A stretch of DNA of 64,000 bases, from positions 1 through 64,000 of the forward strand of contig JAHRVG010000028.1 in the NCBI GenBank assembly GCA_019090795.1, written 5' to 3'. The notes under the pieces were generated by a model, which saw nothing but the letters and a program-made list of their open reading frames with translations, was not told the DNA's origin and ran no database searches. The stretch is from Paracoccaceae bacterium (GTDB lineage: Bacteria > Pseudomonadota > Alphaproteobacteria > Rhodobacterales > Rhodobacteraceae). This document shows, in pieces, positions 14,284 through 61,738 of the stretch (positions are counted from its first letter, which is position 1; every line of letters starts with the position of its first letter). The position numbers and the translations under genes are program-made.

Positions 14284-14709
14284 ATGTATCGACGCGTTAG
14301 CAGCAGCCGTTTTATTGCCTTTGCAACGATTGGCATTGTTATCGTCATGGCCGTGTTTACTTGGGTCATGTACGGCATGGCGCAGCGCGTATTTGTGATG
14401 ACTGATATAATGGTTGAGCTGAACCAAAGCATAAAATCTATGGTGGGAACCCAAGAAAGCATGACGGCGGATATTCATGCCATGGCGCTGAAGTTTGATA
14501 CGATGAATACAAGTATGGTCAAAATGAATAAGAATGTCGGCGATATGAACACCAGCATTGCGGGCATGTCACATAACATAGAAACGATGTCGAAAACGAT
14601 GCAGGTGATGACTGTAAGCGTAAATCGGATGACCCGTGACATTGGTCAGGCTTCCTATGCGTTTTCCCAACCAATGTCTTATATGTGGGGAAACCCGTTT
14701 CCCTTTTAG
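14284..14709 (+). CDS. Small Met-rich coiled-coil membrane protein (single N-terminal TM)
   Basis: 141 aa; TM IAFATIGIVIVMAVFTWVMYGM then heptad-like Met/Asn repeats; 20 Met by count; GFPFPF-like Pro/Phe end. Confidence 0.7.
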   Translation: MYRRVSSSRFIAFATIGIVIVMAVFTWVMYGMAQRVFVMTDIMVELNQSIKSMVGTQESMTADIHAMALKFDTMNTSMVKMNKNVGDMNTSIAGMSHNIETMSKTMQVMTVSVNRMTRDIGQASYAFSQPMSYMWGNPFPF

Positions 14710-14891
14710 GCCCCAGTGCGAAATTGTTGAAATTGGCACCCAAAACATTCCAAAAACGCGAGGTCTAAAGCCTGCGAATCACTGCAGGTTGAAATCTGGG
14801 TTGAGTCGGATTGAGAGCGATTTTCGGCAGATTTCCGCAAATTGGCCAGTTTAATCTACCAAAACTACAAAATTTCTCTACAAATAACAAT

Positions 14892-14911
14892 ACATTCAAA
14901 TATCTAAATAT
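14892..14911. promoter_or_regulatory. Candidate operator ACATTC-N8-AAATAT upstream of RND/sulfur-globule-like cluster
   Basis: ACATTCaaatatctAAATAT; shared with dsrA upstream region. Confidence 0.45.
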
Positions 14912-15038
14912 AAAAATGCTTTAAAAGAAGAATGCATTATGGTAAATGCAATTTACTGAAGTTTCGGATGTGATGAAAAAATAGCCGCGGAAAAGTTAAA
15001 AAAAGACCACCATTAAAGCTGAAATACTGGGGAGTGTT

Positions 15039-16196
15039 ATGAAGCCTTTGAATTGTATTACACGTACGTTTAGTGCGTCGTTAGCGATCACAACCTTGCT
15101 TTTTGCTGGTGGGTATAGTGCGGTTGCTCAAAACAACGGGGCGCAGTATCAAGTTGTGCCAGTGACCGTTTCGCAGGTTGGTGGTGACGCAACAGTTGGT
15201 GGTACGGTAATTCCCTTTAAAGAGGTCACGCTCACAGCGCAAATTCCCGGTCGCGTCACATTTATGGCAGGCATCGAAGGGTATCGCGCAGCGGATGGTG
15301 AAATTCTGATTAGAATCGGAGACGACGAAATTCAGGCGCGCCGTCGCGCTGCGTCGGCGCAAATCTATCAAGCGGAGTCGGCCCTGCGCAATTCTCAGAT
15401 GCAGTATTCGCGCGAACTGTATTCTCCCCGGACCAATTCTCTTACCAACATTCCCGGGATGGGGCTGCCATCCATGTTTGATCAATTTTTCACCCGTGGG
15501 TTCTCGAATTCGATGGGGCAATCGGATTCTGGGTTTGAGCGTCAGGCTGATCTATATGCGCAGGGCGCTGGCATTAGTCAGGCCCAAAGTGCGTTAATGC
15601 AGGCGCAGGCAAACCTCGAAGCTCTTGATGCCCGTTTGCGCGATGCCAATGCGGTGGCTCCGTTTGATGGCGTGGTTGTTCAAAAGATGGTTGAAGTCGG
15701 CGATACAGTTCAACCGGGAATGCCGCTGATCAAATATGCTTTCACAGACTATCTGCGTATCGTTGCGTATGTTCCTGTGCGGCTGGCCTCTGGCTTAAGT
15801 GTTGGCATGATTGTACCCGCCCGAATTGATGCAGCAGGCGGCGAAGTTGAGGCACGGGTGGCGCAGGTTTTTCCAGTCGCCGACCCAGTTCGCCACACGG
15901 TCAAGGTTAAATTTGATCTACCGAATGATACGGTCGGTGGCCCCGGCATGTATGTAGAGGTAACAGTACCTGATAATTCGGTTCCAACCCGCTCGCAAGC
16001 TGCAATCCCAGCAGAGGCACTGGTTTGGCGAGGAAGCCTGCCGTCGGTGTTTGTGCTTCAAGGCGGCAAGCCAATCCTAAAGCTGGTACGTGTTGGCTAT
16101 CCAACCTCTGATGGCCGCGTTGCTGTAATGTCTGGTCTAAGCGGTGGCGAACAAGTCATTCTCAACCCTCCTGCAAATCTGGTTTCTGGTGAGTAA
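15039..16196 (+). CDS. RND efflux periplasmic adaptor (HlyD/AcrA-like) with an inserted segment in the coiled-coil region
   Basis: Signal peptide; VTLTAQIPGRVTFM...; ANAVAPFDGVVVQKMVEVGDTVQPGMPLIKY; insert SPRTNSLTNIPGMGLPSMFDQFFTRGFSNSMG. Confidence 0.88.
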   Translation: MKPLNCITRTFSASLAITTLLFAGGYSAVAQNNGAQYQVVPVTVSQVGGDATVGGTVIPFKEVTLTAQIPGRVTFMAGIEGYRAADGEILIRIGDDEIQARRRAASAQIYQAESALRNSQMQYSRELYSPRTNSLTNIPGMGLPSMFDQFFTRGFSNSMGQSDSGFERQADLYAQGAGISQAQSALMQAQANLEALDARLRDANAVAPFDGVVVQKMVEVGDTVQPGMPLIKYAFTDYLRIVAYVPVRLASGLSVGMIVPARIDAAGGEVEARVAQVFPVADPVRHTVKVKFDLPNDTVGGPGMYVEVTVPDNSVPTRSQAAIPAEALVWRGSLPSVFVLQGGKPILKLVRVGYPTSDGRVAVMSGLSGGEQVILNPPANLVSGE

Positions 16197-16228
16197 CAGA
16201 AACTGAACAGGAAAACGGGGAGGACGTT

Positions 16229-19200
16229 ATGACTGACAAAAACAATCAAACACAAGCGAACAAAACGGTTTTGACCACCAAACTTGGTTTAGCTGGCAAC
16301 TTGGCCAAAAGCTTTATCAATTCACCATTGGCACCATTGCTACTGCTCGCCTGTCTTGGGCTGGGTCTCATGGGCCTGATCCTGACCCCACGTCAGGAAG
16401 ACCCGCAAATTTCGGTGCCCATGGTTGATATCTTCTTTTCCTACCAAGGCGCCTCTTCCGATCAGGTGGCCTCGCTTGCTACCGATCCGCTCGAACGGAT
16501 GATGTCGGAAATTCAAGGTGTAAAGCACGTTTATTCGGTTTCTCAGCGTAACGGTGCGATTGTAACCGTGCAATTTGAAGTGGGCGAGGAACTTGGCCCC
16601 TCTTTGGTAAAGCTGAACGACAAAATTCAGTCAAATCTGGACAGAATTCCCCCCGGTGTTTCCATGCCGCTGATCCGCCCAAAAGGCGTTGACGAGGTAC
16701 CTGTCGTGACCCTGACCTTGTGGTCGCATCTTGTTGACGAGGCATCTTTGCGCTCTCTTGGTCTTGATGTGTTGCAGCGCCTGAAAGAGGTCAAGGACAC
16801 CTCGCAAAGCTTCATTGTCGGTGGTCGCTCAGATGCCATTCGGGTCGAAGTCTTTCCAGAACGCCTTGCTGGTTTTGGCATTGGCCTAGATCAATTGGCG
16901 CAAACAATTCGAACCGCAAATGCGGAGCGGGCAGTCGGAAATGCCGAGATGGGGGATTTATCCTTCTCGCTGATGACAGGTTCTTTTCTAAACAACGCTC
17001 GCGATATTGAAAACCTGATGATCGGAACCAACAGCGGCGAACCTATATATATCCGCGATGTGGCATTGGTTACGGAATCTACTGACGATGCTACAAGTAT
17101 GGTTTCCTATTATACAGGGCCGGCTTACGGGACTGAAATCGGCGGTGATACAGCCAATAGAGCGACATCGGAACGCGCTCCGGTTGGCGCATCGGCCGTG
17201 ACGATAGCCGTTTCCAAGAAAAGCGGTTCCAACGGTGTGAGTGTAGCCTCCGATGTCTTGGCCCACATGGATCATCTAGAGGGAACATTGATCCCAGAGA
17301 GTGTACATGTCGAGGTAACCCGGAACTACGGCGAAACCGCCAATGAAAAAGTAAACGAACTGATTTTCAAGTTGTTCGTCGTCACAGGTGCGGTGACTCT
17401 GCTGATCTGGCTTGCGCTGGGCCTGCGGGCGGCAGTGGTGGTGCTGATTGTGATACCTGTAGTGATCCTGCTGACCGTGTTTTCGGCATGGCTTATGGGG
17501 TACACAATCGACAGGGTGTCCCTGTTTGCGTTGATCTTTTCCATCGGTATTCTGGTGGATGACGCCATTGTGGTGGTCGAGAACATCTATCGTCGCTGGC
17601 TGCAAGATGGCGCAATGGAGGACAGCATCAGCGTGGATGCGGTGCGCGAAGTTGGCAACCCGACCATTCTGGCAACCTTTACCGTGATCGCGGCGTTGTT
17701 GCCGATGGGTTTTGTGACTGGAATGATGGGCCCCTATATGCAGCCCATCCCGGCACTGGGTTCGGTTGCCATGCTGTTGTCTTTGTTCGCGGCTTTTATC
17801 TTCACCCCCTGGCTGGCCCGGCGCATCCGCCCATCGCTGGAAAAACTGGACAAGATGCAGGCCAGCGAACACCGGCAGGCTGAATGGCTGAACAATTTTT
17901 TCACGGCGCTTCTTGTGCCGCTGATCACCAAACGTCTTGTCGGCTGGTTATTCGCTGCGGGTCTGCTGCTTACTTTCGGCCTCAGCTTGTTCTTGTTCAA
18001 AACCACTGACGTTACCGTCAAAATGCTGCCCAAGGACAACAAGCCCGAATTCAACGTCACAATCAACATGCCAGAAGGCACAGCCTTGCCGATCACTGCG
18101 AATGTGATTGCGATGTTGGCGAATGAACTGCGTAAAATGCCTGAAGTGGTGGCATTGCAGAGCTATACGGGCACGGCATCACCTTTTAATTTTAATGGCT
18201 TGGTGCGCCATACCTATTTGCGTGATCGCAGTTGGCAGGGTGACATTCAGGTTCAGATTGTAGACAAAGCTGACCGTGATCGCTCCTCCGAAGACTTGGC
18301 TGTATTCGCGCGCGGGGCGCTGACTCCCATAGCGGTCGCGCTGGGCGCAAACATTGAAGTTATCGAAATGCCCCCCGGTCCGCCGGTATTACAAACCATG
18401 GTCGCCGAGATTTATGGCCCCAACAACGAAACCCGCCGCCAAGTGGCCGCAGACGTGGCCGATATGTTCCGCAAAGCAGAATCAATTGTGGACGTCGACA
18501 CCTTTATGCAGGCCCCTTATCAAAGCTGGCGCTTTTTGGTGAACCGTGAAAAGGCGTCGCGCCGGGGTGTGTCGGTCAATGACATCAACCGACAGTTGGA
18601 AATGGCCATGGGCGGTTTCAAGCTGGGTGATGTCAAAGTTGAACGCGCGCTGGAACCCAAGTTCATCTACTTGCAAATGCCCCTTGCTCTGCGGGGCCAG
18701 TTTGGGCGTCTTGGCCAATTGCCGGTGCCAACGGCAACTGGGGAAATGATTCCTTTGACTGAACTTGGTCATTTTGAACCCTTTGAGGTAGATGCGCCGG
18801 TTTATCATAAAGACTTGCGCGCGGTCGAATTCGTGACCGGTGAAGCTGCGGGTCGGCTGGCGGCACCGATTTATGGTATTCTTGAAATGGAGGGATTGCT
18901 GGACAGCTATACTTCTCCCGATGGTGTGCGGGTTGATACCAACTATATTTCGGCGCCTGAAACCGACCTCCAATCCGCCATTGAATGGACAGGTGAGTGG
19001 ACCGTGACATATGTGACCTTCCGCGACATGGGCATAGCTTTTGGTGTTGCGCTGATCCTGATTTATATCCTCGTCGTTTGGGAATTTGGCAACTTTACCA
19101 TGCCTGCCATTGTGATGTTTCCGATCCCGCTGACATTGATCGGGATCGTTCCCGGCCACTGGTTGTTTGGGGCATCCTTTACCGCGACCTCCATGATCGG

Positions 19201-20041
19201 GTTCATCGCGTTGGCAGGGATTATTGTGCGAAACTCGATTCTGCTGGTGGATTTTTCACGCCATGCCGTACTGGGCGGTATGGCAGTACAAGATGCGGTG
19301 ATTTACGCCTGTGCTACCCGTACGCGTCCGATCATCATTACGGCATTGGCGCTGATGGTTGGTTCCTCTGTGATCCTGTCTGACCCAATTTTTGAGGGCA
19401 TGGCCGTATCGCTGATGATGGGCGGGCTGGTCTCAACCTTGCTGACACTGGTTGTCATTCCGCTCGGATGTGTGAGTTTCAGTTCAGCGTTGACCAATGA
19501 GGGTGAAGGGGTGGTTGCGCAACCGATCGCCGGGTTGCACACCGAAGTAAAGGAAACAACCAGCCTGCCGAACCGTGACGGGATTGGAAAATCCCGTTCG
19601 ATTTTGGTGGCGATAGCGGACAGCTTGTTAATGATTGTTGAGTTGGTCGTCTTTACCGTGACCTCAATTATCAAGACAATCGCTGAAATATTCGGGGGCC
19701 GTAACAAACCGGCACCGGCACCTCAGCCAGCGCCGGTTGTGACAAAGACTGCCCCGCCAAAGGTGGAGGCTGTAAAAGCGGCGGAACCTACCGTAACGGC
19801 CGAGGCGGAGGTTTCAAAACCTGCCGAGGCCAAACCGGCCCCTGCCAAGGAACCGGTGAAAGCAGCTCCCAAGGTGCGCAAAACGGCGGTGAAGAAAGCT
19901 GCTGCAGTTAAACCCAAGGCAAAAAAACCAGCGGCGGCCAAAGCTAATGCCAAGAAACCGACAACCCGTAAAACAAAGACCAAAGCTACTGCACGACGCG
20001 GTATTCGGCTGAAAAAACCCAACGATAGCGGGAAGGAATAG
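16229..20041 (+). CDS. RND family permease with C-terminal Lys/Ala/Pro-rich tail
   Basis: TM/porter architecture; LMSEIQGVKHVYS-type and GILVDDAIVVVENIYRR motifs; FIALAGIIVRNSILLVDF; tail KPAPAPQPAPVVTK...KKAAAVKPKAKKPAAAKANAKK. Confidence 0.92.
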   Translation: MTDKNNQTQANKTVLTTKLGLAGNLAKSFINSPLAPLLLLACLGLGLMGLILTPRQEDPQISVPMVDIFFSYQGASSDQVASLATDPLERMMSEIQGVKHVYSVSQRNGAIVTVQFEVGEELGPSLVKLNDKIQSNLDRIPPGVSMPLIRPKGVDEVPVVTLTLWSHLVDEASLRSLGLDVLQRLKEVKDTSQSFIVGGRSDAIRVEVFPERLAGFGIGLDQLAQTIRTANAERAVGNAEMGDLSFSLMTGSFLNNARDIENLMIGTNSGEPIYIRDVALVTESTDDATSMVSYYTGPAYGTEIGGDTANRATSERAPVGASAVTIAVSKKSGSNGVSVASDVLAHMDHLEGTLIPESVHVEVTRNYGETANEKVNELIFKLFVVTGAVTLLIWLALGLRAAVVVLIVIPVVILLTVFSAWLMGYTIDRVSLFALIFSIGILVDDAIVVVENIYRRWLQDGAMEDSISVDAVREVGNPTILATFTVIAALLPMGFVTGMMGPYMQPIPALGSVAMLLSLFAAFIFTPWLARRIRPSLEKLDKMQASEHRQAEWLNNFFTALLVPLITKRLVGWLFAAGLLLTFGLSLFLFKTTDVTVKMLPKDNKPEFNVTINMPEGTALPITANVIAMLANELRKMPEVVALQSYTGTASPFNFNGLVRHTYLRDRSWQGDIQVQIVDKADRDRSSEDLAVFARGALTPIAVALGANIEVIEMPPGPPVLQTMVAEIYGPNNETRRQVAADVADMFRKAESIVDVDTFMQAPYQSWRFLVNREKASRRGVSVNDINRQLEMAMGGFKLGDVKVERALEPKFIYLQMPLALRGQFGRLGQLPVPTATGEMIPLTELGHFEPFEVDAPVYHKDLRAVEFVTGEAAGRLAAPIYGILEMEGLLDSYTSPDGVRVDTNYISAPETDLQSAIEWTGEWTVTYVTFRDMGIAFGVALILIYILVVWEFGNFTMPAIVMFPIPLTLIGIVPGHWLFGASFTATSMIGFIALAGIIVRNSILLVDFSRHAVLGGMAVQDAVIYACATRTRPIIITALALMVGSSVILSDPIFEGMAVSLMMGGLVSTLLTLVVIPLGCVSFSSALTNEGEGVVAQPIAGLHTEVKETTSLPNRDGIGKSRSILVAIADSLLMIVELVVFTVTSIIKTIAEIFGGRNKPAPAPQPAPVVTKTAPPKVEAVKAAEPTVTAEAEVSKPAEAKPAPAKEPVKAAPKVRKTAVKKAAAVKPKAKKPAAAKANAKKPTTRKTKTKATARRGIRLKKPNDSGKE

Positions 20042-20045
20042 GACC

Positions 20046-20597
20046 ATGAATATTCTGAAAGCCATTTCTATTGCCGTTGCTTGGGTTCTGGCCGTTGCTC
20101 CGGTGGCTGCACAAACGGGCAGGCCACTGCCCCCGCCCGGTCCTTATCAGGAACTGCGTATCCCTTTGCCGATCCCGGCGCACCCGCACCCACAGTGGAA
20201 TAATATCCTGCCTCTGCCTTACTGGATGCAAAGTCGACCTTTACCTCCGGTTCAAGCTCCGGCTCCGGTTGCCCGCACCCCAAATAATGGCCACGGTCCT
20301 GCTTATCCAGCGGCTCCTCAGGGCCAGCAGTGGGGCCAACGTCCCGTTGCACCGAATTGGGGCAGGGCACCTTATGGCCAAGCCTATCAAGGTCAACCTC
20401 GAATGGGCGGCCAATACCCACAAAGCTACAGCGCGTACTCCGGAGCACCGAATCGGTATTACGGCCAAGGGCCTTCTTTCTTTCCAAATGGCCCATGGGG
20501 CGGGTTTTTCGGCCCGACAAACCCGATTTATGGCTATCAGCCCGCACGTCCGGCGCCTGCTCGGCCACAGCTGTGGAAGGGGAGGAAAAGCAGATGA
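20046..20597 (+). CDS. Secreted Pro/Gly/Tyr/Gln-rich low-complexity protein
   Basis: Signal peptide MNILKAISIAVAWVLAVAPVAAQ followed by P/G/Y/Q-rich sequence. Confidence 0.7.
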   Translation: MNILKAISIAVAWVLAVAPVAAQTGRPLPPPGPYQELRIPLPIPAHPHPQWNNILPLPYWMQSRPLPPVQAPAPVARTPNNGHGPAYPAAPQGQQWGQRPVAPNWGRAPYGQAYQGQPRMGGQYPQSYSAYSGAPNRYYGQGPSFFPNGPWGGFFGPTNPIYGYQPARPAPARPQLWKGRKSR

Positions 20598-21196
20598 GAA
20601 GGTTTGACATGAAAACAGGAAAAAATAGTACAGGGGTTGCACTGGCTGCTCTGGTCTGCATCGTATCCGGTCCAGTTGTCGCGCAGATAGGCAACCCGTG
20701 GAACCCGAACGCAGACGTGGCAGCCACAGGGCCCTCACAATTTATAGCCCCCGCTCCGCGAATTTTGCCCGCTCAGGCCACTGTTTCTAGCAAATATGCA
20801 CCAGCGGATCTGGAGCAACGTCTGTCAGCCGTAAAACGCCCCCAACCCGTGGCCCCGCCGCAAGTGCCGCAAATGGCCCAACCTCAAGGGGTAACAATTC
20901 AGCAGCCAGGGTCTGGGCAAGCAAACCCGTACCCGGCCAGCCCGCAGTATCAAGCACCGGAGGCTAACGGATACCCAAACAATAGCTATGCACCGCAATA
21001 CGGGTATGGCGCACCGCAACAGGGCTACAACGGGTACCCACCCGGTTACGGCCAAGGCGGATACAACAATTATGGCACTGCTACGCCGTATGGGCCGGGG
21101 AACTATCCCGGTGGAGTAGGTGGTTATGTGCCGTACGGGGGTTTCCCCGGCGGTGGGTCATCCCCCTTTAATTTTAGCCCCTTTGGGTTTTTCTGA
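20594..21196 (+). CDS. Secreted Gly/Tyr/Pro/Asn-rich protein, sulfur-globule-protein-like composition
   Basis: ATGA overlap with previous CDS; signal peptide MRRFDMKTGKNSTGVALAALVCIVSGPVVAQ; ...QYGYGAPQQGYNGYPPGYGQGGYNNYG... Confidence 0.65.
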   Translation: MRRFDMKTGKNSTGVALAALVCIVSGPVVAQIGNPWNPNADVAATGPSQFIAPAPRILPAQATVSSKYAPADLEQRLSAVKRPQPVAPPQVPQMAQPQGVTIQQPGSGQANPYPASPQYQAPEANGYPNNSYAPQYGYGAPQQGYNGYPPGYGQGGYNNYGTATPYGPGNYPGGVGGYVPYGGFPGGGSSPFNFSPFGFF

Positions 21197-21308
21197 ACCT
21201 GAAAGCTAGGAGGTTCGCGCCGTTCTGGCGCAGACAAATTGGAAGCTGGCAAATGTCCCAATGCCAAGCTCCCCATCATTTTTAGGGACAAAAACTAGGA
21301 GACTACCA

Positions 21309-21857
21309 ATGCGTAAATCTATCATCACTGCCGCCATCGCTGCAGCCGCAAGCACTGTAATAGTAACCCAAGCAGTTGCTCAAAACTGGGGCCCAGCTCC
21401 TGGCCCAGGTTACTACTCCAACAACAACAACGGTTGGGGCGGTAACAACTGGACGCCATGGGGCGGTAACAACAACGGTTGGGGTGGCAACAACAACGGT
21501 TGGGGTGGCAACAACTGGATGCCTTGGGGCGGCAACAATGGCTACAACAACGGTTGGGGCAACAACTGGGGTCCCTTCTCTGGTTCCAACAACAATGACG
21601 GAAGCGGTGCCGGTTCCTTCAACTTCGGCTTCACTGGTAACGCTGAAGGCAAAGGCCGCGGCGAAGGCCGTGGTGAAGGTCGTGGTGAAGGTTACGGCAA
21701 CGGCTACGGCTATGGTAACAACTATGGCCGCAACCAAATGTGGAACCCAGCTTGGGGTCCATATCCTGGTCCACAAGGCCCATATGCCAACCAACAGCCT
21801 GCCGCTCCAGCTGGCGAAGCTGTTGAAACACCAAAAGCTGACGCAGCAAGCGAATAA
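21309..21857 (+). CDS. Sulfur globule family-like secreted protein
   Basis: Signal peptide MRKSIITAAIAAAASTVIVTQAVAQ; NNNGWGGN repeats, FNFGFTGNAEGKGRGEGRGEGRGEGYGNGYGYGNNYGR, resembling sulfur globule family proteins of purple/colourless sulfur bacteria. Confidence 0.7.
   Translation: MRKSIITAAIAAAASTVIVTQAVAQNWGPAPGPGYYSNNNNGWGGNNWTPWGGNNNGWGGNNNGWGGNNWMPWGGNNGYNNGWGNNWGPFSGSNNNDGSGAGSFNFGFTGNAEGKGRGEGRGEGRGEGYGNGYGYGNNYGRNQMWNPAWGPYPGPQGPYANQQPAAPAGEAVETPKADAASE
21468..21509 (+). repeat. Perfect tandem 21-bp repeat (two copies) inside the sulfur-globule-like gene
   Basis: aacaacaacggttggggtggc at 21468-21488 and 21489-21509. Confidence 0.9.
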
Positions 21858-21881
21858 TTTGCGTCACATGTAACAATGCCG

Positions 21882-21903
21882 CCGCCCCCGGTTCCGGGGG
21901 CGG
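21882..21903 (+). terminator. Strong GC-rich hairpin directly after sulfur-globule-like gene (attenuator or mRNA 3' stabiliser)
   Basis: CCGCCCCCGGTTCCGGGGGCGG, near-perfect palindrome with no following T-run, inside the operon. Confidence 0.6.
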
Positions 21904-21942
21904 TTGGCCCAACTGAAACTGATTCATGTTGAAGAGGTTCCC

Positions 21943-22734
21943 ATGACCAAGCACATTCAGACAGCCCTAGCGCTCTTGGTTGCGACAATGGGTATTATGA
22001 TTGCAGCGATTACCCATGCGCAATCACCTACTGCATCAAAAACATACACTGCCATCGCGGTTCATTCCCTTCCCGGCCAATCTGAAACTTTTGGCACAAT
22101 CGTTAAATCCGGTCAAAACCTGAGGCTGGAATACGACGAAGCGGGCCGCCGGGTGATCCAGATCCTCTTGCCCACAGTGGGCGCGATGTATTTTCTCGAC
22201 CCCAAGACGCAAACATACACCGAGTATCTCGGGCCTTCGGTGCCTGCGACAGATATTGAGGGTTATACATCTCCTTGTCCTGGTAAAGAAGCCAGCCCCA
22301 GTTGCCAACATGTTGGCGACGACGTGGTTAGTGGCGTCAAGGTGGAACGCTGGGCACTGGCCTCGGACCAGTCAGGCAAGCCTCTCGTTATTTTGTGGAA
22401 TTCTGCCCGCCGACGTGCGTTGCGTCAGGACTTTCCTGAAGGCGGCAGTATGGTTATGACTTTTGTGGCTATGGAAGATTTGAACGGTCGTTTTGCGGAG
22501 CACTGGACAATCAAGCATTCAATTCCTGGTAGCGATGTAAAAAGCGGTGACTGGTGGTTTGATCCCAAACTGCGGGTTGTGGTGAGGGAAAACCTGCCAA
22601 GCGGCGAAACGCGCCGGTTGGATAATATCACCGTCGGGCCTGTTGATCCGGCACTTTTCCAAGTGCCCCAAGGGTGGCGAAAAGCCGAGCCGCCTGCAGC
22701 CGTTTTACAAAACCCGGTGGCTGGTAGCGAATGA
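21943..22734 (+). CDS. Secreted DUF4412-like protein
   Basis: RBS gaagagg; signal peptide MTKHIQTALALLVATMGIMIAAITHAQ; MYFLDPKTQTYTEY, SGVKVERW, WWFDPKLRVVVRENLPSGETRRLDNI. Confidence 0.6.
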   Translation: MTKHIQTALALLVATMGIMIAAITHAQSPTASKTYTAIAVHSLPGQSETFGTIVKSGQNLRLEYDEAGRRVIQILLPTVGAMYFLDPKTQTYTEYLGPSVPATDIEGYTSPCPGKEASPSCQHVGDDVVSGVKVERWALASDQSGKPLVILWNSARRRALRQDFPEGGSMVMTFVAMEDLNGRFAEHWTIKHSIPGSDVKSGDWWFDPKLRVVVRENLPSGETRRLDNITVGPVDPALFQVPQGWRKAEPPAAVLQNPVAGSE

Positions 22735-22753
22735 AGCGTAAGGAATACCCAAA

Positions 22754-23374
22754 ATGTTGACATTATTCGCGAATTTCAAAGGTGGAACCGGCAAGAGCAC
22801 ACTGGTTTTCAACATGGCCATGTGGCGTATTTTGCAAGGTAAGAAAGTTACGGTGTGTGATCTCGATCCGCAACGCACTGTGACGGATGTGGCTGAGATC
22901 CGCGATGAGGACGGTGTGGAACCTTCTTTGAGCGTTGTGCATGAATTGCCTGAAAATGGCAAAGCCAAGGGCGATTGGCTGATTGATGTGGGCACCTCGG
23001 ATATGGGTTCTTTGCGTGCCGCAATCCGGATGTGTACCAAGATCGTCATTCCCGTAACGCCATCGCAAGCGGATATCTGGGCGACACAGCATTTTTTGGA
23101 TATCGTAGAAACCGAACGCAAAGGTAAAAAAATGCCCCCGATTGTGGCCTTCATCAACCGTGCAGATCCACATCCCCGCTCGCGTGAGAACGCCGAGACG
23201 CTGGAGGCACTTGAGACGCTTGAGTCGATCAAAGCACTGCCACAGAAAATGGTGCAACGGCTGGCTTTCCGCCGGTCGTTTTCCGAGGGGTTGGCCGTGT
23301 TTGAACTGGACCCGTCGGGCAAGGCGGCAAGTGAACTGGATGAACTGGCGCGGGCGATCTATGGATCAAAATGA
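22754..23374 (+). CDS. ParA/MinD-family ATPase (orphan)
   Basis: Deviant Walker A FKGGTGKST; CDLDPQRT; DVGTSD; VIPVTPSQADIWAT. Confidence 0.88.
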   Translation: MLTLFANFKGGTGKSTLVFNMAMWRILQGKKVTVCDLDPQRTVTDVAEIRDEDGVEPSLSVVHELPENGKAKGDWLIDVGTSDMGSLRAAIRMCTKIVIPVTPSQADIWATQHFLDIVETERKGKKMPPIVAFINRADPHPRSRENAETLEALETLESIKALPQKMVQRLAFRRSFSEGLAVFELDPSGKAASELDELARAIYGSK

Positions 23375-23420
23375 CCGATGCTGAAATACAAAATAGAAAC
23401 CTGGAACAAGGCTGTTGAAT

Positions 23421-24032
23421 ATGCCCTTTCTTCGACTGATCATCATTTACATTGTTGTCATCGCTATCGTATTTGCAATTTTCAACCGCGATAGGGTTAT
23501 GCAACTTGCAGGGTTCTCGCTTGAGTCTTCTGAAAGCGGCAAAGTTGACGAGGCCGCAATTGTTGCGGAAATCGTTGAAACGGCACCTGTACCCGAGAAA
23601 ACCGCTGAGATCACTGAAACTGCCGTGACAATGCAAACCGAAACAGAACCACAGCAAGCCGCTCCGGCACCGGTTGACCAATCACCTAAACAACAGGCAG
23701 TGCCAGCAACTGCCAACCCGAATGCAGATCTCAAATCAAGTCTTGATGAAGTGCGCAAAGCCTTTTGGGGGGGGGATGCCCAAAAAGCAGAGACGCTCTA
23801 TGTTGCACTGGCAGCGCAGTATGAGGCAGATGCCAATATTCAGGGTGAAACCGGGAATTTTTTCTACTCACAGCGTCGTTATCCCGAGGCCGCAAAATAT
23901 TTCCATCGCGCGGGCTTGTTACTGGTGAACACTGGCAACAAGCAGCAAGTGATGTCGATTATTATCGCGTTGCAGCAAATTGCCCCAGACAAGGCAACCG
24001 ACCTGCGTGCCAGAGCTGCCAAACAGCCGTAA
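23421..24032 (+). CDS. Membrane-anchored TPR-like protein
   Basis: N-terminal TM FLRLIIIYIVVIAIVFAIF, Glu/Pro-rich linker, then AETLYVALAAQYEADANIQGETGNFFYSQRRYPEAAKYFHRAG (TPR-like). Confidence 0.6.
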   Translation: MPFLRLIIIYIVVIAIVFAIFNRDRVMQLAGFSLESSESGKVDEAAIVAEIVETAPVPEKTAEITETAVTMQTETEPQQAAPAPVDQSPKQQAVPATANPNADLKSSLDEVRKAFWGGDAQKAETLYVALAAQYEADANIQGETGNFFYSQRRYPEAAKYFHRAGLLLVNTGNKQQVMSIIIALQQIAPDKATDLRARAAKQP

Positions 24033-24059
24033 CCGGAATTCTACAGGGACACCTAGCAT

Positions 24060-25547
24060 ATGAGCCACTTTTTGAATAATCGTCTCGCCCGTCTGGAAAA
24101 CCATCTCAAGGCTGAGAACCCCGCGTTGCTGGAGGTTTTGCCGACATATTACACATTCGATAAGCTGCTGTATCGTACTGGCTTACTGGACAAGGAATCC
24201 TCACTGGCTTCGCGCATTTCGTGGTGGCCGCTGATTTCCGTTCTTGGAACTTTTTCGTCGGGTAAATCTACCTTCATCAATTCCTATGTGGGCGATAAGC
24301 TGCAAAGTACCGGCAATCAGGCGGTGGATGATAAATTTACCGTGATCTGCCATCGTACAGCAACCACCGCAGGCAGCCAAACCTTGCCCGGCACCGCACT
24401 GGATGCCGATCCGCGCTTCCCGTTTTTCCGGATTTCCCATGAAATCGAAAAAGTTGCCCAAGGTGAAGGCAAACATATCGAGAGCTATCTGCAACTGCGC
24501 ACAACCAGTAACGACCGAATTAAAAGCAAAATCATTATCGATTCCCCCGGTTTTGATGCCGATGACCAGCGCCGTTCAACCCTGCGCATTACCGATCACA
24601 TCATTGACCTTTCCGATCTTGTGCTGGTGTTCTTTGATGCGCGCCACCCGGAACCCGGCGCTATGCAAGATACGCTGGAACATCTGGTCGCACGCACAGT
24701 CAAGCGCACGGATGCCTCAAAATTCCTTTATGTGCTGAACCAGATTGATACTGCTGCCAAAGACGATAACGCCGAAGAAATCGTCGGTGCATGGCAGCGC
24801 GCAGTGGCACAGGCGGGATTAGCCGCGGGTCAGTTTTACACCATCTACAACGAAGAAGCTGCGATTCCGATCGAAGACAAAGCCCAGCGGGAACGCTTCC
24901 AGAAGAAGCGGGATGCCGATCTGGCAAAGATTATTACCCGCATGGACGAGGTGGAACTACAACGCAATTATCGCATCGTTAGCGTGCTCGAAACTGTGGC
25001 GAATGAACTGGAGCACGATATCTTGCCCAGACTGCGCAAAGCCAAAGCAAGCTGGCGGCGTGGCGTTTTGATCGGTGACGGTATTGCACTGGCCGTCTTG
25101 GTTGCAGTCATTGCGGGCTTGATGTTCTATTTCAAATGGATGCCGCCGATGCAGGTATTCTCGTTTGATTGGATCGTGAACCACAAAATCGACGTTGGGG
25201 CCAGCATTCTGGCAGCGATTGTTTTGATTGGCAGCTTTCACTTTTGGGTGCGGGGTGTCGTTGCGAAACGGATCGCGAAACCGATGAGCCGAGCTTATGG
25301 TCAGGTCGAACTAAACCTGCGCGCAGCCTTTGAGAAAAGCACCTCTGCACTGCACTCGGTGTTTGGCACAGAACCTGCGGGTTGGGGCGGGCGTGCGGCT
25401 AAAAAATTGCGATTGGTACGCGAAACTGTTGCCAATCATATCCAGAGCCTGAACGACAGATATGCCGACCCCTCAGGTAGATCTGCTATCGTTGAGGGGC
25501 AGGCCACAATAACAGAGCCTGTGGTCAACGCAGAAGCCCACAAATAA
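24060..25547 (+). CDS. Dynamin-like GTPase with C-terminal TM pair
   Basis: P-loop GTFSSGKSTFINSYVG; IIIDSPGFDADDQRRSTLR; NQIDTAAKDD; two hydrophobic segments near residues 345-405. Confidence 0.82.
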   Translation: MSHFLNNRLARLENHLKAENPALLEVLPTYYTFDKLLYRTGLLDKESSLASRISWWPLISVLGTFSSGKSTFINSYVGDKLQSTGNQAVDDKFTVICHRTATTAGSQTLPGTALDADPRFPFFRISHEIEKVAQGEGKHIESYLQLRTTSNDRIKSKIIIDSPGFDADDQRRSTLRITDHIIDLSDLVLVFFDARHPEPGAMQDTLEHLVARTVKRTDASKFLYVLNQIDTAAKDDNAEEIVGAWQRAVAQAGLAAGQFYTIYNEEAAIPIEDKAQRERFQKKRDADLAKIITRMDEVELQRNYRIVSVLETVANELEHDILPRLRKAKASWRRGVLIGDGIALAVLVAVIAGLMFYFKWMPPMQVFSFDWIVNHKIDVGASILAAIVLIGSFHFWVRGVVAKRIAKPMSRAYGQVELNLRAAFEKSTSALHSVFGTEPAGWGGRAAKKLRLVRETVANHIQSLNDRYADPSGRSAIVEGQATITEPVVNAEAHK

Positions 25548-25559
25548 AAGGTTGCGAAT

Positions 25560-26126
25560 ATGTACACAGAACCAACCTGCGCCGTACCAGAGGGCCGATG
25601 CGCAGAGCAGGCCTTTCGTTTGGCGGTTTATGAAGCAGGGCATGCGTTAACGGCGCGCGCATTGGGGTTGCGTGTTATCTCCGTACGTATGTTGCCCCGC
25701 CCACCAATCTTGGTTAGCGACAAAGCGTTTGGACAAGATTGGGAATCATTTATCGAGACGCTGGAAATTCGGATTATTGAATTGTTTGGCGGTTTGCTTG
25801 CTGAGGAATTCACCTGTTCATCGGCCACCTGTTGCAGCGGAGATGTTGCCCGAATTGATGAATTGACTCGTCTGGTGGCCGGTCTGAGCCAAGAAGGCGA
25901 TCACGAGTTTATTTGGGATAAACTTGAGGACGTAGCCCAGAATATTTTTGACCAAAAGAAGAACCAGGATGCGATTTTGCCATTGGCCGAATTCCTTTAC
26001 CAACGTGTATTGGAGGGTGAAGAGTTTGTTGATGGCGCGGATGTCGAAATTGAACTGGATAAACTTGTTCCCTTTGCACCCAAGAAAAAATGGTCAAAGC
26101 GCCTTTTCTCCTTTGGGCGGCCTTAG
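25560..26126 (+). CDS. M41/FtsH-peptidase-like protein with altered zinc motif (YEAGH)
   Basis: LAVYEAGHALTARALG...FGGLLAEEF...CSGDVARIDELTRLV matches the FtsH protease core pattern. Confidence 0.65.
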   Translation: MYTEPTCAVPEGRCAEQAFRLAVYEAGHALTARALGLRVISVRMLPRPPILVSDKAFGQDWESFIETLEIRIIELFGGLLAEEFTCSSATCCSGDVARIDELTRLVAGLSQEGDHEFIWDKLEDVAQNIFDQKKNQDAILPLAEFLYQRVLEGEEFVDGADVEIELDKLVPFAPKKKWSKRLFSFGRP

Positions 26127-26151
26127 GCCGTAACGGGGAAAGCTTGCAAAT

Positions 26152-26171
26152 ACATTCAATTTTATGTATAT
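26152..26171. promoter_or_regulatory. Candidate operator ACATTC-N8-GTATAT upstream of DUF2892 gene
   Basis: ACATTCaattttatGTATAT. Confidence 0.35.
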
Positions 26172-26211
26172 GTAATCAAATTGTCCAAACTCCAACATGT
26201 CAGGTATCAAT

Positions 26212-26424
26212 ATGAATGCTCAACGTCTCACAATGACCCTTGCCGGGTTGTTCATCCTCGTCGCCCTTGGCCTTGGTCATATGATGGGCCAATTTGATCT
26301 TTCCAGCTTAAGCTGGCTGTGGTTCATCATCTTTATTGGTGTGAATTTGTTTCAATCAGGCATCACCGGGTTTTGCCCGCTAACCAGAATTTTGCTGTTT
26401 CTGGGCATTAAACCCGCAAGCTAA
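26212..26424 (+). CDS. DUF2892 (YgaP-like membrane domain) protein
   Basis: MNAQRLTMTLAGLFILVALGLGHMM...WFIIFIGVNLFQSGITGFCPLTRILLFLGI. Confidence 0.8.
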   Translation: MNAQRLTMTLAGLFILVALGLGHMMGQFDLSSLSWLWFIIFIGVNLFQSGITGFCPLTRILLFLGIKPAS

Positions 26425-26568
26425 TTGTTGAATAACTACGTGGCGCTGACCTCTGTGTATAGCGGTCAGCGCTAAAATTATGGGCCTCCCTTCAATGGGA
26501 AACAGCGCGCCCATCGCACGATCTGTGATCACCTATGTTGGCGCAGGTTGATCGCTTGTAAACTCGAT

Positions 26569-26588
26569 ATATTCGAGTATCATAATAT
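26569..26588. promoter_or_regulatory. Candidate operator ATATTC-N8-TAATAT upstream of DUF302 gene
   Basis: ATATTCgagtatcaTAATAT, 32 bp before the start codon. Confidence 0.4.
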
Positions 26589-26619
26589 ATCACTGCATTC
26601 GTAATCTGGGGAGATTCAC

Positions 26620-27207
26620 ATGGGCTTTGTTCGCAATGTATTGGCATTATTGGGCCTGATTGCTGTTGGATTGGCAATTTGGGTAGGGCCGACACTTTAT
26701 AAATATAAGTCAGCATTTGACACGTTTGATCCACAGGCTTTCACCACCTACAGGAAAATGGCGGATCAATTGGTTGAAACCGGGAATGCAGCCGCTGCCA
26801 CTGTCTGGAAGGCCAAGGTTGCCGAAGGCCTGACTTTCGAAGAAGTTGACGAGTCGATCAAGAACATTGCCATAGAGCGCAATATCAGGGGTGTCGGGGA
26901 GTTGCCTTTGGGCGATCAAGTTAGCGCAATGAACGGAGAACCTTGGCGCAAACTGCAAATTTATCTTTATTGTAATCCGCTTACCGCCGCCAAAATGATC
27001 GAACATGATCCCGCGTATGCGGCTTACCTGCCGTGTCGTATTTCACTGGTCGAGGATGACGAAGGCCAGCTGTGGATTTATACTCTCGACATGGACATGA
27101 TGATTTATGGTGGCAAAACCTTGCCGGACAAATTGTTGAAAGAGGCACTTGAGGTGAAAAGCATTATGCAGGATATTTTAGAACGCGCCGCCGAAGGTGA
27201 CTTTTAG
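26620..27207 (+). CDS. DUF302 domain protein
   Basis: N-terminal TM; LQIYLYCNPLTAAKMIEHDPAYAAYLPCRISLVEDDEGQLWIYTLDMDMMIYGG. Confidence 0.75.
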   Translation: MGFVRNVLALLGLIAVGLAIWVGPTLYKYKSAFDTFDPQAFTTYRKMADQLVETGNAAAATVWKAKVAEGLTFEEVDESIKNIAIERNIRGVGELPLGDQVSAMNGEPWRKLQIYLYCNPLTAAKMIEHDPAYAAYLPCRISLVEDDEGQLWIYTLDMDMMIYGGKTLPDKLLKEALEVKSIMQDILERAAEGDF

Positions 27208-52226: not shown

Positions 52227-53180
52227 TTATTTCCCCTGTACGCGATTGTGAAAGCGAACACGCATCATCAGGCGTTCACTTGGTTTCGTCATATTTGCGT
52301 CAAAACCGGTGCGGTTGTGAAGCGAATTATTGCACAAAACCCCGACGCCGGATTGCATATGTATGGTTTGGATAAACGGTTCATCCGAGGCCAGCAGCTC
52401 TGTCAGAAACGCGACAGCCTCGGCTGTGATAGCATCCTCACGCCAGGCAATCGAGCGGGTTCGGGCGGTGTAGCGCATTTCCAGCTTACCGGTTTGCGGG
52501 TCAATGGCGAAAACCGGGCCGATGCTGACCGGACGGATTTTACCATTGCCTTCGTCATTCTCCGGGATGGTCATCGCTTGCGGGTGGGACAGCGCGGTTA
52601 TGTAATCCGGGTTGGCATCGCGCAGGCGGATATAAGCAATTTCGGGGTCGAGAAGCTGGTTTTTGCCACCACTTTCTGCAGCGCGTGCGCAATGCAAAAC
52701 CATGGCGCGAATTTTCTGGTCTGGGCCATTGTAATAGCCATCGGTGTGCCAGTTAATTGGGCGTTTGGAATAGGGGATATAGCCCTTCTTGCCCGCTGAT
52801 TCTGATTCCTGTAGCGAAACAATACCATCATTTCCCGCTGATCTGTGCTTTTCCGCGATGCGCAGGCCAAGGCTGTCGGCAAATTGCCGCAGCCGAGAAG
52901 ATATCCGCTCGGGGGCGGTTTCATGTGCCATGTCACGATAGAGAACGGCATTGGAAATATCGCATCTGTTGCAGATTTCCTCACTTTCGTTCGGCTTCAG
53001 ATTCGCGATGTCCTCAATCGGAATAATAAGAGTTTCTTTCGCTAATTCAGATGCTTGCTGTAGTTTTTTTGCGCGCCACTCAGAGTAGCCAGCGGCACTC
53101 AAAAAATCCTTACTGTTTTTATCGGAAATTGAGGTGTTTTTATCAACCATAGTTGGTATTTCCTCGTGTGACGGTTTCAA
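52227..53180 (-). CDS. TauD/TfdA family Fe(II)/2-oxoglutarate dioxygenase-like protein
   Basis: INWHTDGYYN HxD motif; GVLCNNSLHNRTGF distal His region. Confidence 0.75.
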   Translation of the reverse strand: MKPSHEEIPTMVDKNTSISDKNSKDFLSAAGYSEWRAKKLQQASELAKETLIIPIEDIANLKPNESEEICNRCDISNAVLYRDMAHETAPERISSRLRQFADSLGLRIAEKHRSAGNDGIVSLQESESAGKKGYIPYSKRPINWHTDGYYNGPDQKIRAMVLHCARAAESGGKNQLLDPEIAYIRLRDANPDYITALSHPQAMTIPENDEGNGKIRPVSIGPVFAIDPQTGKLEMRYTARTRSIAWREDAITAEAVAFLTELLASDEPFIQTIHMQSGVGVLCNNSLHNRTGFDANMTKPSERLMMRVRFHNRVQGK

Positions 53181-53461: not shown

Positions 53462-54748
53462 ATGAAAGACGGCGAACCACACGACGGTAAAACCGAAGAA
53501 GTAGAAATTCACCCAACCCCGATGTTGGATCAGTTGGAAGACGGCCCGTGGCCAAGTTTTGTAACCGGGCTTAAGCGCCTGAGGGATTCCAAGGGCGAGC
53601 GTTATGCGCCAATGGTAAATGACCTGATGGGTCAGTTGAACCACTCCTATGAAAATCGCAAAGGGTATTGGAAGGGTGGCGTTGTATCCGTTTACGGTTA
53701 TGGCGGTGGTATTATCCCGCGTTACTCCGAAGTTGCAGACAAGTTCCCCGAGTCGAAAGAATTCCACACTCTGCGGGTCATGCCTCCTCCGGGTTTTCAT
53801 TATACCACTGATTTGCTGCGCAAGATGTGTGATATCTGGGAAGAGCACGGCTCTGGCCTGATCGCGTTCCACGGCCAATCCGGCGACATCATGTTCCAGG
53901 GTTGTACCACCGAGAAAACACAGGTTGCTTTTGATGAGCTTAACAAGATCGGCTTTGATCTTGGCGGTGCTGGCCCCGCATTGCGGACCGCCATGAGCTG
54001 CGTTGGCGCTGCCCGTTGCGAGCAGTCCTGCTTGAACGAGGCGCGCGCACACCGCGGTATTATTAATTCCTTGCTGGATGAGATGCACCGCCCTTCGCTG
54101 CCATACAAATTCAAGTTCAAATTCTCAGGTTGTGGCAATGACTGCGTGAACGCGATCCACCGTGCGGACTTTGCGGTGATCGGCACTTGGCGTGACGACA
54201 TGAAGGTTAATCAGGAAGAAGTTAAGAAGCACGTCGCCAAGGTTGGGCGTAAGTACGTGATTGACACAGTTATCTCTATGTGTCCGACACGCGCTTTGTC
54301 GTTGCATGATGATGATACGCTGGAAGTAGACAACAAAAGCTGCGTACGTTGTATGCACTGTATCAACGTAATGACCAAAGCCCTGTCGCCTGGTGACGAC
54401 AAAGGTGCTTCAATCATGATCGGCGGCAAGCGTTCGCTGAAAGTGGGCGATATGATGGGCATTATGATTAAGCCGTTTATCAAGCTGGAAACCGAAGAGG
54501 ACTATGAGGCTTTGGAGGAGTTTGCCGAGGAATGCGTTGAATTCTTTGCAGATAACGCATTGGAGCACGAGCGAGTCGGTGAAACCATTGATCGTATTGG
54601 CTTGCCTGCCTTCCTTGAGGCAGTTGACGTCGATGTTGATCCCAACATGGTCAACCATCCGCGAACTTCCAGCTATGTTCGTACCGACGATTTTGATGAA
54701 GAGGCCGAGAAGTGGTTTGAGCGCAAAGCGGAAATGGCTAGCGAATAG
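53462..54748 (+). CDS. dsrA: Reverse-type dissimilatory sulfite reductase alpha subunit
   Basis: KGYWKGGVVSVYGYGGGIIPRY; SCVGAARCEQSCLNE; KFSGCGNDCVNAI; ferredoxin domain CVRCMHCIN. Confidence 0.97.
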   Translation: MKDGEPHDGKTEEVEIHPTPMLDQLEDGPWPSFVTGLKRLRDSKGERYAPMVNDLMGQLNHSYENRKGYWKGGVVSVYGYGGGIIPRYSEVADKFPESKEFHTLRVMPPPGFHYTTDLLRKMCDIWEEHGSGLIAFHGQSGDIMFQGCTTEKTQVAFDELNKIGFDLGGAGPALRTAMSCVGAARCEQSCLNEARAHRGIINSLLDEMHRPSLPYKFKFKFSGCGNDCVNAIHRADFAVIGTWRDDMKVNQEEVKKHVAKVGRKYVIDTVISMCPTRALSLHDDDTLEVDNKSCVRCMHCINVMTKALSPGDDKGASIMIGGKRSLKVGDMMGIMIKPFIKLETEEDYEALEEFAEECVEFFADNALEHERVGETIDRIGLPAFLEAVDVDVDPNMVNHPRTSSYVRTDDFDEEAEKWFERKAEMASE

Positions 54749-59788: not shown

Positions 59789-61738
59789 ATGGACGGTCAA
59801 ACAAATTCATACCGGCGCTACGAAGACGGCGAGACACCAGGAGATTGGGAACTGGAAGACATGATCTTTCAGCAAGATACATCTTACAAGTGTCCGACCT
59901 ACATTCACCGTACACCTCCTTGTCAGGGGTCTTGCCCATCAGGGGAAGACATCCGTGGTTGGCTGAATATTGTGCGCGGCATTGAAAAGCCGCCCGTTGA
60001 TGCAGATGGCAACGAAATGCCTTGGGCGGATTATGCCTTTCTGCGCTCTACTAACGCCAACCCCTTTCCTGCCATTATGGGACGTGTTTGCCCCGCTCCT
60101 TGTGAGGATGGCTGTAACCGAAATGAGGTCGAAGACCACGTTGGTATCAACGCGGTAGAACATTTCATCGGTGATTCAGCACTGAAAAATAAACTGTCAC
60201 TGGCACCGGCTGGCGCGGATACCGGCAAATCGGTGGCGTTGATTGGTGGCGGTATTGCCAGCTTGTCCGCAGCTTACCAGCTGCGCCGCAAAGGCCACGC
60301 CTGTACGATCTTTGAGGCCCACGATAAACTCGGCGGTATGATGCGTTACGGCATCCCCGGCTATCGGACCCCGCGTGAAGTTCTGGACGGCGAAATCCAA
60401 CGCGTGCTGGACATGGGCGTTGAAGTGCGCACCAATACCAAAATCGGCGTTGATGTCACGTTTGAGCAGCTCGAAGAAGATTTCGACGCCGTGTTCATCG
60501 GTATCGGTGCACAGGGTGGTTCGCCTTTGCCAGTGCCCGGTGCGGATGAGGCACCGAACTGTATTAGTGGTATTTCTTTCCTTGACGCCTTTAACGATGG
60601 CCGCTTGCAACACGGCGCTGAAAAGGTTCTGGTCATCGGCGGTGGTGATACTGCGATGGATGTAGCCGCTGTTGCGCGACGCATCGGTCACATCAACAAG
60701 GTGGCCGAGAAAGACCGCCCTGAATATGTGGTTCTGGGCCAAACGGCCCATGATGTTGCGACCGTTGCCAAACGTGACGGCGCGGATGTTACTGTGGTTT
60801 ACCGCCGTCCGGTCACCGCAATGCCAGCCACCAAGATGGAAATCGAGCATGTGACAGCAGAGGGCGTGATCATTCGCGACTCTTTGGTGCCGGTATCGGT
60901 TGTTCTTGACGATGCAGGCCGCGCAAAAGCGTTGCGTGTTGCGACTGCCGACTGGAGTACCGGTAAATGTGTAATTCTCGAAAACAGCGAGCAAGACATC
61001 GAATGTGACCTGATCGTTGCTGCTATTGGTCAGGTAGGTGATTTGACCGGCATGGAAGAGATGAACAACGGCTGGAACCTGATCAATGCGGATAGCCATT
61101 TCCGCTGGCCGGACCGTGATGGCATTTTCGTAGCTGGTGACGTGGTAAAGCCGCATCTGCTGACAACTGCTGTTGGGCAGGCCTCAATCGCGGCGGATTC
61201 GATTGATCACTATCTGAAGGGCGAAGACCAGAAGAAGCTGCCCAAGGTGAATGTGCATCACTTCAATCTGATGGAAAAACTGATGGAAGGCGGGCACCAG
61301 CCCTCTGAGTATGACCACATTCAGGCCGTCGGTACCGACAGCGCGGATTACGCCATCCACAACTACGAAGATCGTTCCGCCACGCAGATCGTTCCAGCGG
61401 ATGAATTGTACTTGGGCCATTGGGCTTATGACCCCCGCTTCCGGCGTAAGGAAAATCAAATCGGCAGCGAAAACGTGCTGGGCCATTTTGATGAACGCAT
61501 CTTTGGGCCGGATTCAGAAAATGCCCGCAAAGAAGCGGATCGCTGTATGAGCTGTGGCATGTGTTTTGAATGCGACAATTGCATTGTCTACTGCCCTCAG
61601 GACGCTGTTCACAAGGTTAAGAAAGCTGACAACACTACCGGGCGCTATGTGGAAACCGATTACGACAAGTGTATTGGTTGCCACATCTGTGCAGATGTTT
61701 GCCCATCAGGTTACATCAAAATGGGTCTCGGTGAATAA
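59789..61738 (+). CDS. dsrL: DsrL-type NAD(P)H oxidoreductase, copy 1 (diverged)
   Basis: CPTYIHRTPPCQGSCPSGEDIRGW; CPAPCEDGCNRNEV; C-terminal ferredoxin CMSCGMCFECDNCIVYCPQDAV...CIGCHICADVCPSGYIKMGLGE. Confidence 0.93.
   Translation: MDGQTNSYRRYEDGETPGDWELEDMIFQQDTSYKCPTYIHRTPPCQGSCPSGEDIRGWLNIVRGIEKPPVDADGNEMPWADYAFLRSTNANPFPAIMGRVCPAPCEDGCNRNEVEDHVGINAVEHFIGDSALKNKLSLAPAGADTGKSVALIGGGIASLSAAYQLRRKGHACTIFEAHDKLGGMMRYGIPGYRTPREVLDGEIQRVLDMGVEVRTNTKIGVDVTFEQLEEDFDAVFIGIGAQGGSPLPVPGADEAPNCISGISFLDAFNDGRLQHGAEKVLVIGGGDTAMDVAAVARRIGHINKVAEKDRPEYVVLGQTAHDVATVAKRDGADVTVVYRRPVTAMPATKMEIEHVTAEGVIIRDSLVPVSVVLDDAGRAKALRVATADWSTGKCVILENSEQDIECDLIVAAIGQVGDLTGMEEMNNGWNLINADSHFRWPDRDGIFVAGDVVKPHLLTTAVGQASIAADSIDHYLKGEDQKKLPKVNVHHFNLMEKLMEGGHQPSEYDHIQAVGTDSADYAIHNYEDRSATQIVPADELYLGHWAYDPRFRRKENQIGSENVLGHFDERIFGPDSENARKEADRCMSCGMCFECDNCIVYCPQDAVHKVKKADNTTGRYVETDYDKCIGCHICADVCPSGYIKMGLGE

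Follow-up and report, generated by a model that had tools for sequence, protein, structure and literature searches.

A conserved gene block joining an RND pump, a sulfur globule-type protein, an orphan ParA and a dynamin-like GTPase: a candidate sulfur-globule system of Alphaproteobacteria and Gammaproteobacteria

Research on sulfur globules goes back over a hundred years; beyond their coat proteins, little is known about how they are built, enclosed, spaced and divided. Four sulfur globule proteins (Sgp) have been reported in SUP05 (PMC6509183). ParA-type ATPases position cargos with the help of partners whose termini, positively charged and often disordered, bind and stimulate the ATPase; numerous ParA proteins stay orphans, their partners unrecognised (PMC10241942, PMC12204374). 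Here, a block of thirteen genes was analysed at positions 14284-27207 of a 64,000-nt stretch (“the window”) of contig JAHRVG010000028.1 (assembly GCA_019090795.1), from a genome of 3.63 Mb in 141 contigs whose close relatives carry the names Rhodobacteraceae and Marinosulfonomonas. We consider it fairly probable that these genes make up a machine for sulfur globules of the periplasm: an RND pump and a LolA-like protein for delivery, an Sgp coat, a dynamin-like GTPase for membrane shaping and a ParA ATPase for spacing through the C-terminal tail of the pump permease. The genes, with families assigned by Pfam/NCBIfam profile matches, were as follows:

14284..14709, + strand: “coil” protein, N-terminal transmembrane (TM) segment (hydrophobic residues 5-34) and coiled coil
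15039..16196, + strand: RND periplasmic adaptor (membrane-fusion protein, MFP) with signal peptide (TIGR01730, 148 bits, 3e-43), conserved in order
16229..20041, + strand: RND permease of the HAE type with the proton-relay motif GILVDDA (NF033617, 8e-123, residues 28-1078)
19586..20038, + strand: C-terminal extension of the permease (about residues 1120-1270), a hydrophobic segment (1122-1157) followed by a Lys/Ala/Pro-rich tail ending in RRGIRLKKPNDSGKE
20046..20597, + strand: secreted low-complexity protein A, motifs PPPGPYQ..LPYWMQ, without Pfam match
20609..21196, + strand: secreted low-complexity protein B, motifs NPW..YAPADLEQRL..SPFGFF, without Pfam match
21309..21857, + strand: Sgp-like secreted Gly/Asn-rich protein (PF17228, 29.4 bits, cut-off 26.7)
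21943..22734, + strand: secreted 264-aa protein, predicted LolA/LprG/RseB/EPDR1-like half-barrel (AlphaFold model and Foldseek)
22754..23374, + strand: orphan ParA ATPase, FKGGTGKST (CbiA/ParA, E 7e-13)
23421..24032, + strand: TPR-like protein with N-terminal TM anchor, conserved in order
24060..25547, + strand: dynamin-like GTPase with C-terminal TM pair (Dynamin_N, PF00350, 1.8e-13; hydrophobic residues 336-354 and 383-401)
25560..26126, + strand: pseudo-M41 protein, YEAGH for HEAGH (motif)
26197..26424, + strand: YgaP-like TM protein, formerly DUF2892 (PF11127, 8e-10)
26620..27207, + strand: DUF302 protein with N-terminal TM segment (PF03625, 3e-14)

Genes, strand and coordinates agreed with a preliminary description of the same DNA. 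Most gaps were short: from the adaptor gene to the M41-like gene they were mostly 5-46 bp, with wider gaps of about 112 and 86 bp on the two sides of the Sgp gene. Promoter and terminator scans of the locus gave sites no commoner than in shuffled sequence.

The block recurred as a unit. Among 150 sampled Rhodobacteraceae genomes, close dynamin orthologues (77-79% identity) were found in three other genera, together with ParA orthologues (75-80% identity) in the same genomes; the order permease, low-complexity proteins, 264-aa protein, ParA, TPR and dynamin was identical there, and the outer flanks differed. As the order is conserved in unrelated flanking contexts, the block is no chance juxtaposition. 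Searching genomes with an alignment of the dynamin gave 455 relatives, 80 of which were kept for locus comparison and included about 30 Rhodobacterales loci with the block, some cut by contig ends. Two forms were seen: a long form in Rhodobacterales (MFP, RND, three low-complexity secreted proteins, LolA-fold protein, ParA, TPR, dynamin and, in part, pseudo-M41), and a short form in Gammaproteobacteria (MFP, RND, Sgp, ParA, TPR, DUF302, coil, dynamin). Several Rhodospirillales and gammaproteobacteria held adaptor, permease, Sgp-like, ParA, TPR, DUF302, coil and dynamin genes in varying completeness. The ParA sequences of the collected loci formed 21 clusters at 70% identity, and pairwise distances of permease, ParA and dynamin were correlated (r 0.82-0.92), as expected for co-inherited genes. 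No plasmid-borne copies of the module were found.

The coil gene, which lies 5' of the adaptor gene in alphaproteobacteria, stands immediately before the dynamin gene in gammaproteobacteria, where a DUF302 gene lies between ParA and dynamin; the coil gene at 14284 and the DUF302 gene thus belong to the wider module. The DUF2892 gene adjoined the block in the window and its two closest relatives only and is probably peripheral, so that its listing as a module part in the preliminary description did not hold. The pseudo-M41 gene, also counted there as a part, was conserved in Rhodobacterales and almost nowhere else (28 loci, all except one Rhodobacterales), and is peripheral to the core. That description overlooked that the permease has a Lys-rich tail, that the 264-aa protein is predicted to have a LolA-like fold and that the coil gene recurs beside the dynamin gene in Gammaproteobacteria.

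In the ParA protein, K9, G10, G11, G13, K14, S15, T16, D38 and D78, covering the deviant Walker A with its signature lysine, Walker A' and Walker B, were invariant across 29 orthologues. Its nearest solved structure was ParF. Against the partition-ATPase model NF041546 it scored 128 bits, below the cut-off of 180 bits; no ParB was found in the block, as the preliminary description had observed, and the neighbours of ParA were the same across many genomes. The module ParA is not a member of a ParABS or plasmid partition pair.

The pump, whose permease has CmeB, MdtB and AcrB as relatives in the PDB, also lacked a usual companion: there was no outer-membrane factor in the block, again as described before, and none was recognised at the orthologous loci inspected. 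RND permeases usually end shortly after TM12. The module permeases extended 140-330 residues further, with an extra hydrophobic segment and then a Lys/Ala/Pro-rich stretch that, from Rhodobacterales to gammaproteobacteria, ended in RRGI(R/Q/K)L(K/N) (RRGIRLK in the window). This RRGI(R/Q/K)L end or a near variant (ATRGIRLK, KRKGIRLK) was present in every permease with a readable C-terminus in ParA-bearing loci. An apparent tail-less exception, L179, was rejected because of a frameshift, the tail sitting in another frame. Two gammaproteobacterial genomes (L163 and L202, permeases 82% identical) kept adaptor, permease, low-complexity, LolA-like, TPR, coil and dynamin genes, and had neither the tail nor a ParA orthologue anywhere in the genome. 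One genome with a tailed permease and no adjacent ParA encoded ParA elsewhere. Since tail and ParA are jointly present or missing, and known ParA partners use basic disordered termini, the permease tail is the best candidate for the ParA partner, a role we regard as likely from these sequence patterns.

It may instead be that the module serves sulfur globules and ParA is held by the TPR, coil or DUF302 membrane protein, the tail binding directly to the surface of the globule, to peptidoglycan or to nucleoid DNA. Most loci encode the TPR and coil proteins, both of which are membrane-anchored. The extra hydrophobic segment after TM12 makes the topology of the tail uncertain, and with an odd count of TM passes the tail would lie in the periplasm, beyond the reach of ParA; the joint loss of tail and ParA in L163 and L202 is, moreover, probably one evolutionary event. 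Both points tell against a tail that binds ParA. Nevertheless, TPR, coil and LolA-like proteins were kept in L163 and L202 despite the loss of ParA, and only the tail went with it. The strong positive charge of the tail also favours the cytoplasm under the positive-inside rule, and from this charge we infer a cytoplasmic tail. A different ParA partner is therefore unlikely.

A link to globules comes from the third low-complexity protein, which by profile match is a member of the sulfur globule protein family PF17228, as its earlier naming as Sgp-like had anticipated. Above the gathering score (26.7) were the copies of the window (29.4 bits), L161 (57), L191 (40) and L050 (34.5); matches occurred among module proteins of both classes, the best with 57 bits and E 3.7e-15. 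L047 gave no match, and L022 and L099 scored under the cut-off, where some alphaproteobacterial copies fell. When the window protein was shuffled five times with its composition kept, no PF17228 match resulted. The Sgp-like copies inspected showed, by eye and not by a predictor, an N-terminal hydrophobic signal with an AxA-like end.

PF17228 genes also tracked ParA across genomes. They were present in 20 of the 25 ParA-bearing gammaproteobacteria tested and in one of 24 with dsrA and without ParA; copies unlinked to the module gave the same picture (19/25 vs. 1/24, P 2e-7). The two genomes with the tail-less module, which fall outside these groups, held PF17228 genes, and none were found in 14 control genomes (0/14). 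The profile may miss divergent Sgp proteins (four are reported for SUP05, PMC6509183), so that the lack of a match does not prove the lack of globules. These counts, together with two ParA-bearing genomes that hold Sgp genes and no dsrA, indicate that the module is more closely tied to Sgp genes than to dsrA. They bear on another explanation, that the block is a ParA-positioned envelope system for the export or detoxification of a hydrophobic lipid or sulfur compound in sulfur oxidisers, with Sgp merely co-regulated and globules neither product nor cargo. Adaptor, RND permease and LolA-like carrier do resemble lipid and hydrophobe transport systems. In both classes, however, the module itself includes a PF17228 gene, and Sgp genes unlinked to it track ParA more closely than dsrA does; this explanation is improbable.

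The module was associated with sulfur oxidation. The rDsr cluster (dsrAB, DsrE, DsrC, DsrM, DsrK, DsrL) lay 26 kb downstream of the block (DsrA starts at 53462), as previously noted, and module and dsr genes were close in L050 (alphaproteobacterial) and L163 (gammaproteobacterial). In the Rhodobacteraceae sample, where dsrA was present in 15 of the 150 genomes, the orthologous dynamin was found in 4/15 genomes with dsrA vs. 0/135 without (P 6.7e-5). Among 184 gammaproteobacteria, ParA orthologues (all with E <1e-59, the best non-orthologous matches in the inspected genomes being 1e-33 or weaker) were present in 30/63 vs. 3/121 (Fisher P 8.6e-14). When 50 genomes with the dynamin were checked for dsrA, it turned up in almost all that carried the module and in few of the Azospirillum type. 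The module is hardly seen outside genomes that carry genes for sulfur oxidation or sulfur globules. The preliminary description had proposed as a test recurrent co-occurrence with rDsrAB and absence from rdsr-negative relatives. The outcome was favourable: without dsrA the module was absent in Rhodobacteraceae and rare in Gammaproteobacteria, and the co-occurrence was recurrent and partial, most dsrA-bearing genomes being without the module.

The dynamin alone was tried as a marker and rejected: in gammaproteobacteria without ParA it showed no dsrA association (7/17, P 0.59), and it is found as a lone gene in Azospirillum and in further bacteria that have no rDsr. A same-family dynamin (52-57% identity) was a lone gene, without the module, in many Azospirillum species (L080-L098, L103, L104, L106, L120), and in A. 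halopraeferens (L082) the lone dynamin was accompanied by dsrA in the genome. G041, the first dynamin relative met in another family (which matches Azospirillum cavernae), was dropped, no cluster being found there. G407, of the same genus as the window, had neither dsrA nor the module, which suggests joint gain or loss of both inside the genus.

Further observations weigh against a role in sulfur globules. Co-occurrence counts such as 4/15 and 30/63 were uncorrected for phylogeny or shared ancestry. The module was missing from 11/15 alphaproteobacterial and 33/63 gammaproteobacterial genomes with dsrA, so that rDsr does not generally have it as a partner. SUP05 stores sulfur in the periplasm with Sgp proteins and has been reported without dynamin (PMC6509183); together with the genomes lacking the module, this indicates that globules do not generally depend on the module. 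Three ParA-bearing gammaproteobacterial genomes (G543, G601, G618) had no dsrA, two of them with Sgp genes. Absence of SoxCD, as in classical thiosulfate globule formers, was considered as an explanation of the distribution and rejected, SoxC being present in 13/20 module-bearing alphaproteobacterial genomes, that of the window included. The last explanation, that the block brings together by chance, as ordinary neighbours, an RND multidrug pump, a chromosomal or plasmid ParA and a dynamin with housekeeping functions, draws on the common family name of every part and on the lone dynamins of Azospirillum, and is highly improbable given an order kept from alpha- to gammaproteobacteria with different flanks, the correlated distances, the odd permease tail and the association with dsrA and Sgp.

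The 264-aa protein had no sequence family match; its AlphaFold model (pLDDT 88.9) matched EPDR1, LolA, LprG and RseB in Foldseek (E 6e-6 to 1e-3, probability 1.0), with low TM-scores, mostly 0.3-0.55, and is predicted to be a LolA-like half-barrel, a fold type holding hydrophobic ligands. The dynamin G motifs (P-loop, DxPG and N(K/Q)xD, as GTFSSGKST, DSPGFD and LNQID) were conserved across 21 sequences, the model (pLDDT 73) matched EHD, IniA, mitofusin and BDLP, and about half of the sampled gammaproteobacterial members of the family adjoined ParA, RND or coil genes. In the M41-like protein the first zinc-binding histidine was replaced by tyrosine (YEAGH or a close variant) in nearly all orthologues and no peptidase M41 profile match was obtained; with this histidine missing, an active M41 protease is unlikely.

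Taken as a globule machine, the block may work as follows. Globules in bacteria of this kind are periplasmic, and as they grow the inner membrane would have to bulge into the cytoplasm. The RND pump, its adaptor and the LolA-like carrier would move a hydrophobic cargo, whether sulfur chains, a lipid or an envelope component, presumably in the outward direction, into the periplasm, where the Sgp protein and the two further low-complexity proteins would form the globule coat. Together with the coil and TPR membrane proteins, the dynamin-like GTPase, itself anchored in the membrane, would shape, or sever, the inner-membrane bulge around the globule. By a putative physical interaction, ParA would grip the basic cytoplasmic tail of the pump with its RRGIRLK end and spread the assemblies over the nucleoid, so that globules are spaced and inherited. 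The stored sulfur would subsequently be oxidised by rDsr. More tentatively, at somewhat short of an even chance, the block may be a dedicated sulfur-globule organelle system akin to carboxysome or magnetosome gene sets, with the RND transporter as both globule builder and ParA cargo adaptor through its H1-like tail, and with the dynamin remodelling the membrane.

Other features were seen beside these genes. In the ParA-less module (L163:9081-9683, L202:2-223) an extra secreted protein of ~200 aa was encoded right after the dynamin gene, and was not noticed in the other loci inspected; in two gammaproteobacterial loci (L113:11480-13582, L121:10977-13351) the dynamin gene was followed by genes for a small membrane protein and a potassium-channel-like protein. 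In the window, two tandem DsrL-like genes (59789-61738 and 61853-63778) came after DsrK, where the dsr clusters of L024, L025 and L026 showed one, closer to the second copy. A TauD/TfdA-like dioxygenase gene (52230-53120) adjoined CysG and dsrAB in the window and likewise in L024, L025, L026 and L050.

If the proposal is true, ParA positioning would gain a new class of cargo and, in the tail of a transporter, an adaptor of a new kind; globules would gain their first membrane-remodelling candidate, and rDsr bacteria a genomic marker of sulfur storage. The gene set is compact and its hosts include cultivable ones, which makes it testable by gene deletion and microscopy. Among these, Maritimibacter fusiformis HY14, Maritimibacter sp. 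HL-12 and Sinisalibacter aestuarii B-399 each carry both dsrA and the module.

With McdAB, the carboxysome positioning system, and other ParA/MinD cargo systems, the module shares a small ParA beside the presumed cargo gene, an intact deviant Walker A, a basic terminus on the (candidate) partner and, among the known cases, sulfur-oxidising hosts (PMC10241942, PMC12204374). It differs in lacking McdB, ParB, ParC/TlpT or an FlhG-type partner, with the RND permease tail as the candidate instead, and in its proposed cargo: a membrane-enclosed periplasmic globule is not named as cargo in the passages of those sources that were searched. SgpA-D of Allochromatium vinosum (PMC10386293) are likewise secreted repetitive proteins of rDsr-bearing sulfur-oxidising hosts, and the module protein matches PF17228; the known work covers coat proteins only. 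A. vinosum SgpD, encoded beside a hydrophobic/amphiphilic exporter, was considered as a case of the same module and dropped, the next gene (Alvin_2516) not being sulfur-regulated and SgpD being almost restricted to Chromatiaceae (PMC10386293).

The permease, the adaptor and the proton-relay DD motif are those of RND tripartite efflux pumps (AcrB, CmeB, MdtB, MexK), unlike which the block has no outer-membrane factor, a long Lys-rich tail and ties to Sgp and ParA. Like bacterial dynamin-like proteins, EHD ATPases and mitofusins (BDLP, IniA, SynDLP), the module dynamin has a dynamin GTPase domain, a long helical part and a C-terminal TM pair, but it forms a separate family in which no characterised member was found. 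The 264-aa protein resembles the LolA/LprG/RseB superfamily in its predicted periplasmic half-barrel, by model comparison and not by sequence family. Searches of open-licence literature on sulfur globules with ParA, dynamin, RND or DUF302 brought up no account of this system, and within that literature the earlier claim of an undescribed combination stands. Taken singly, the parts are members of known families or resemble them, and the novelty lies in the gene set as a system.

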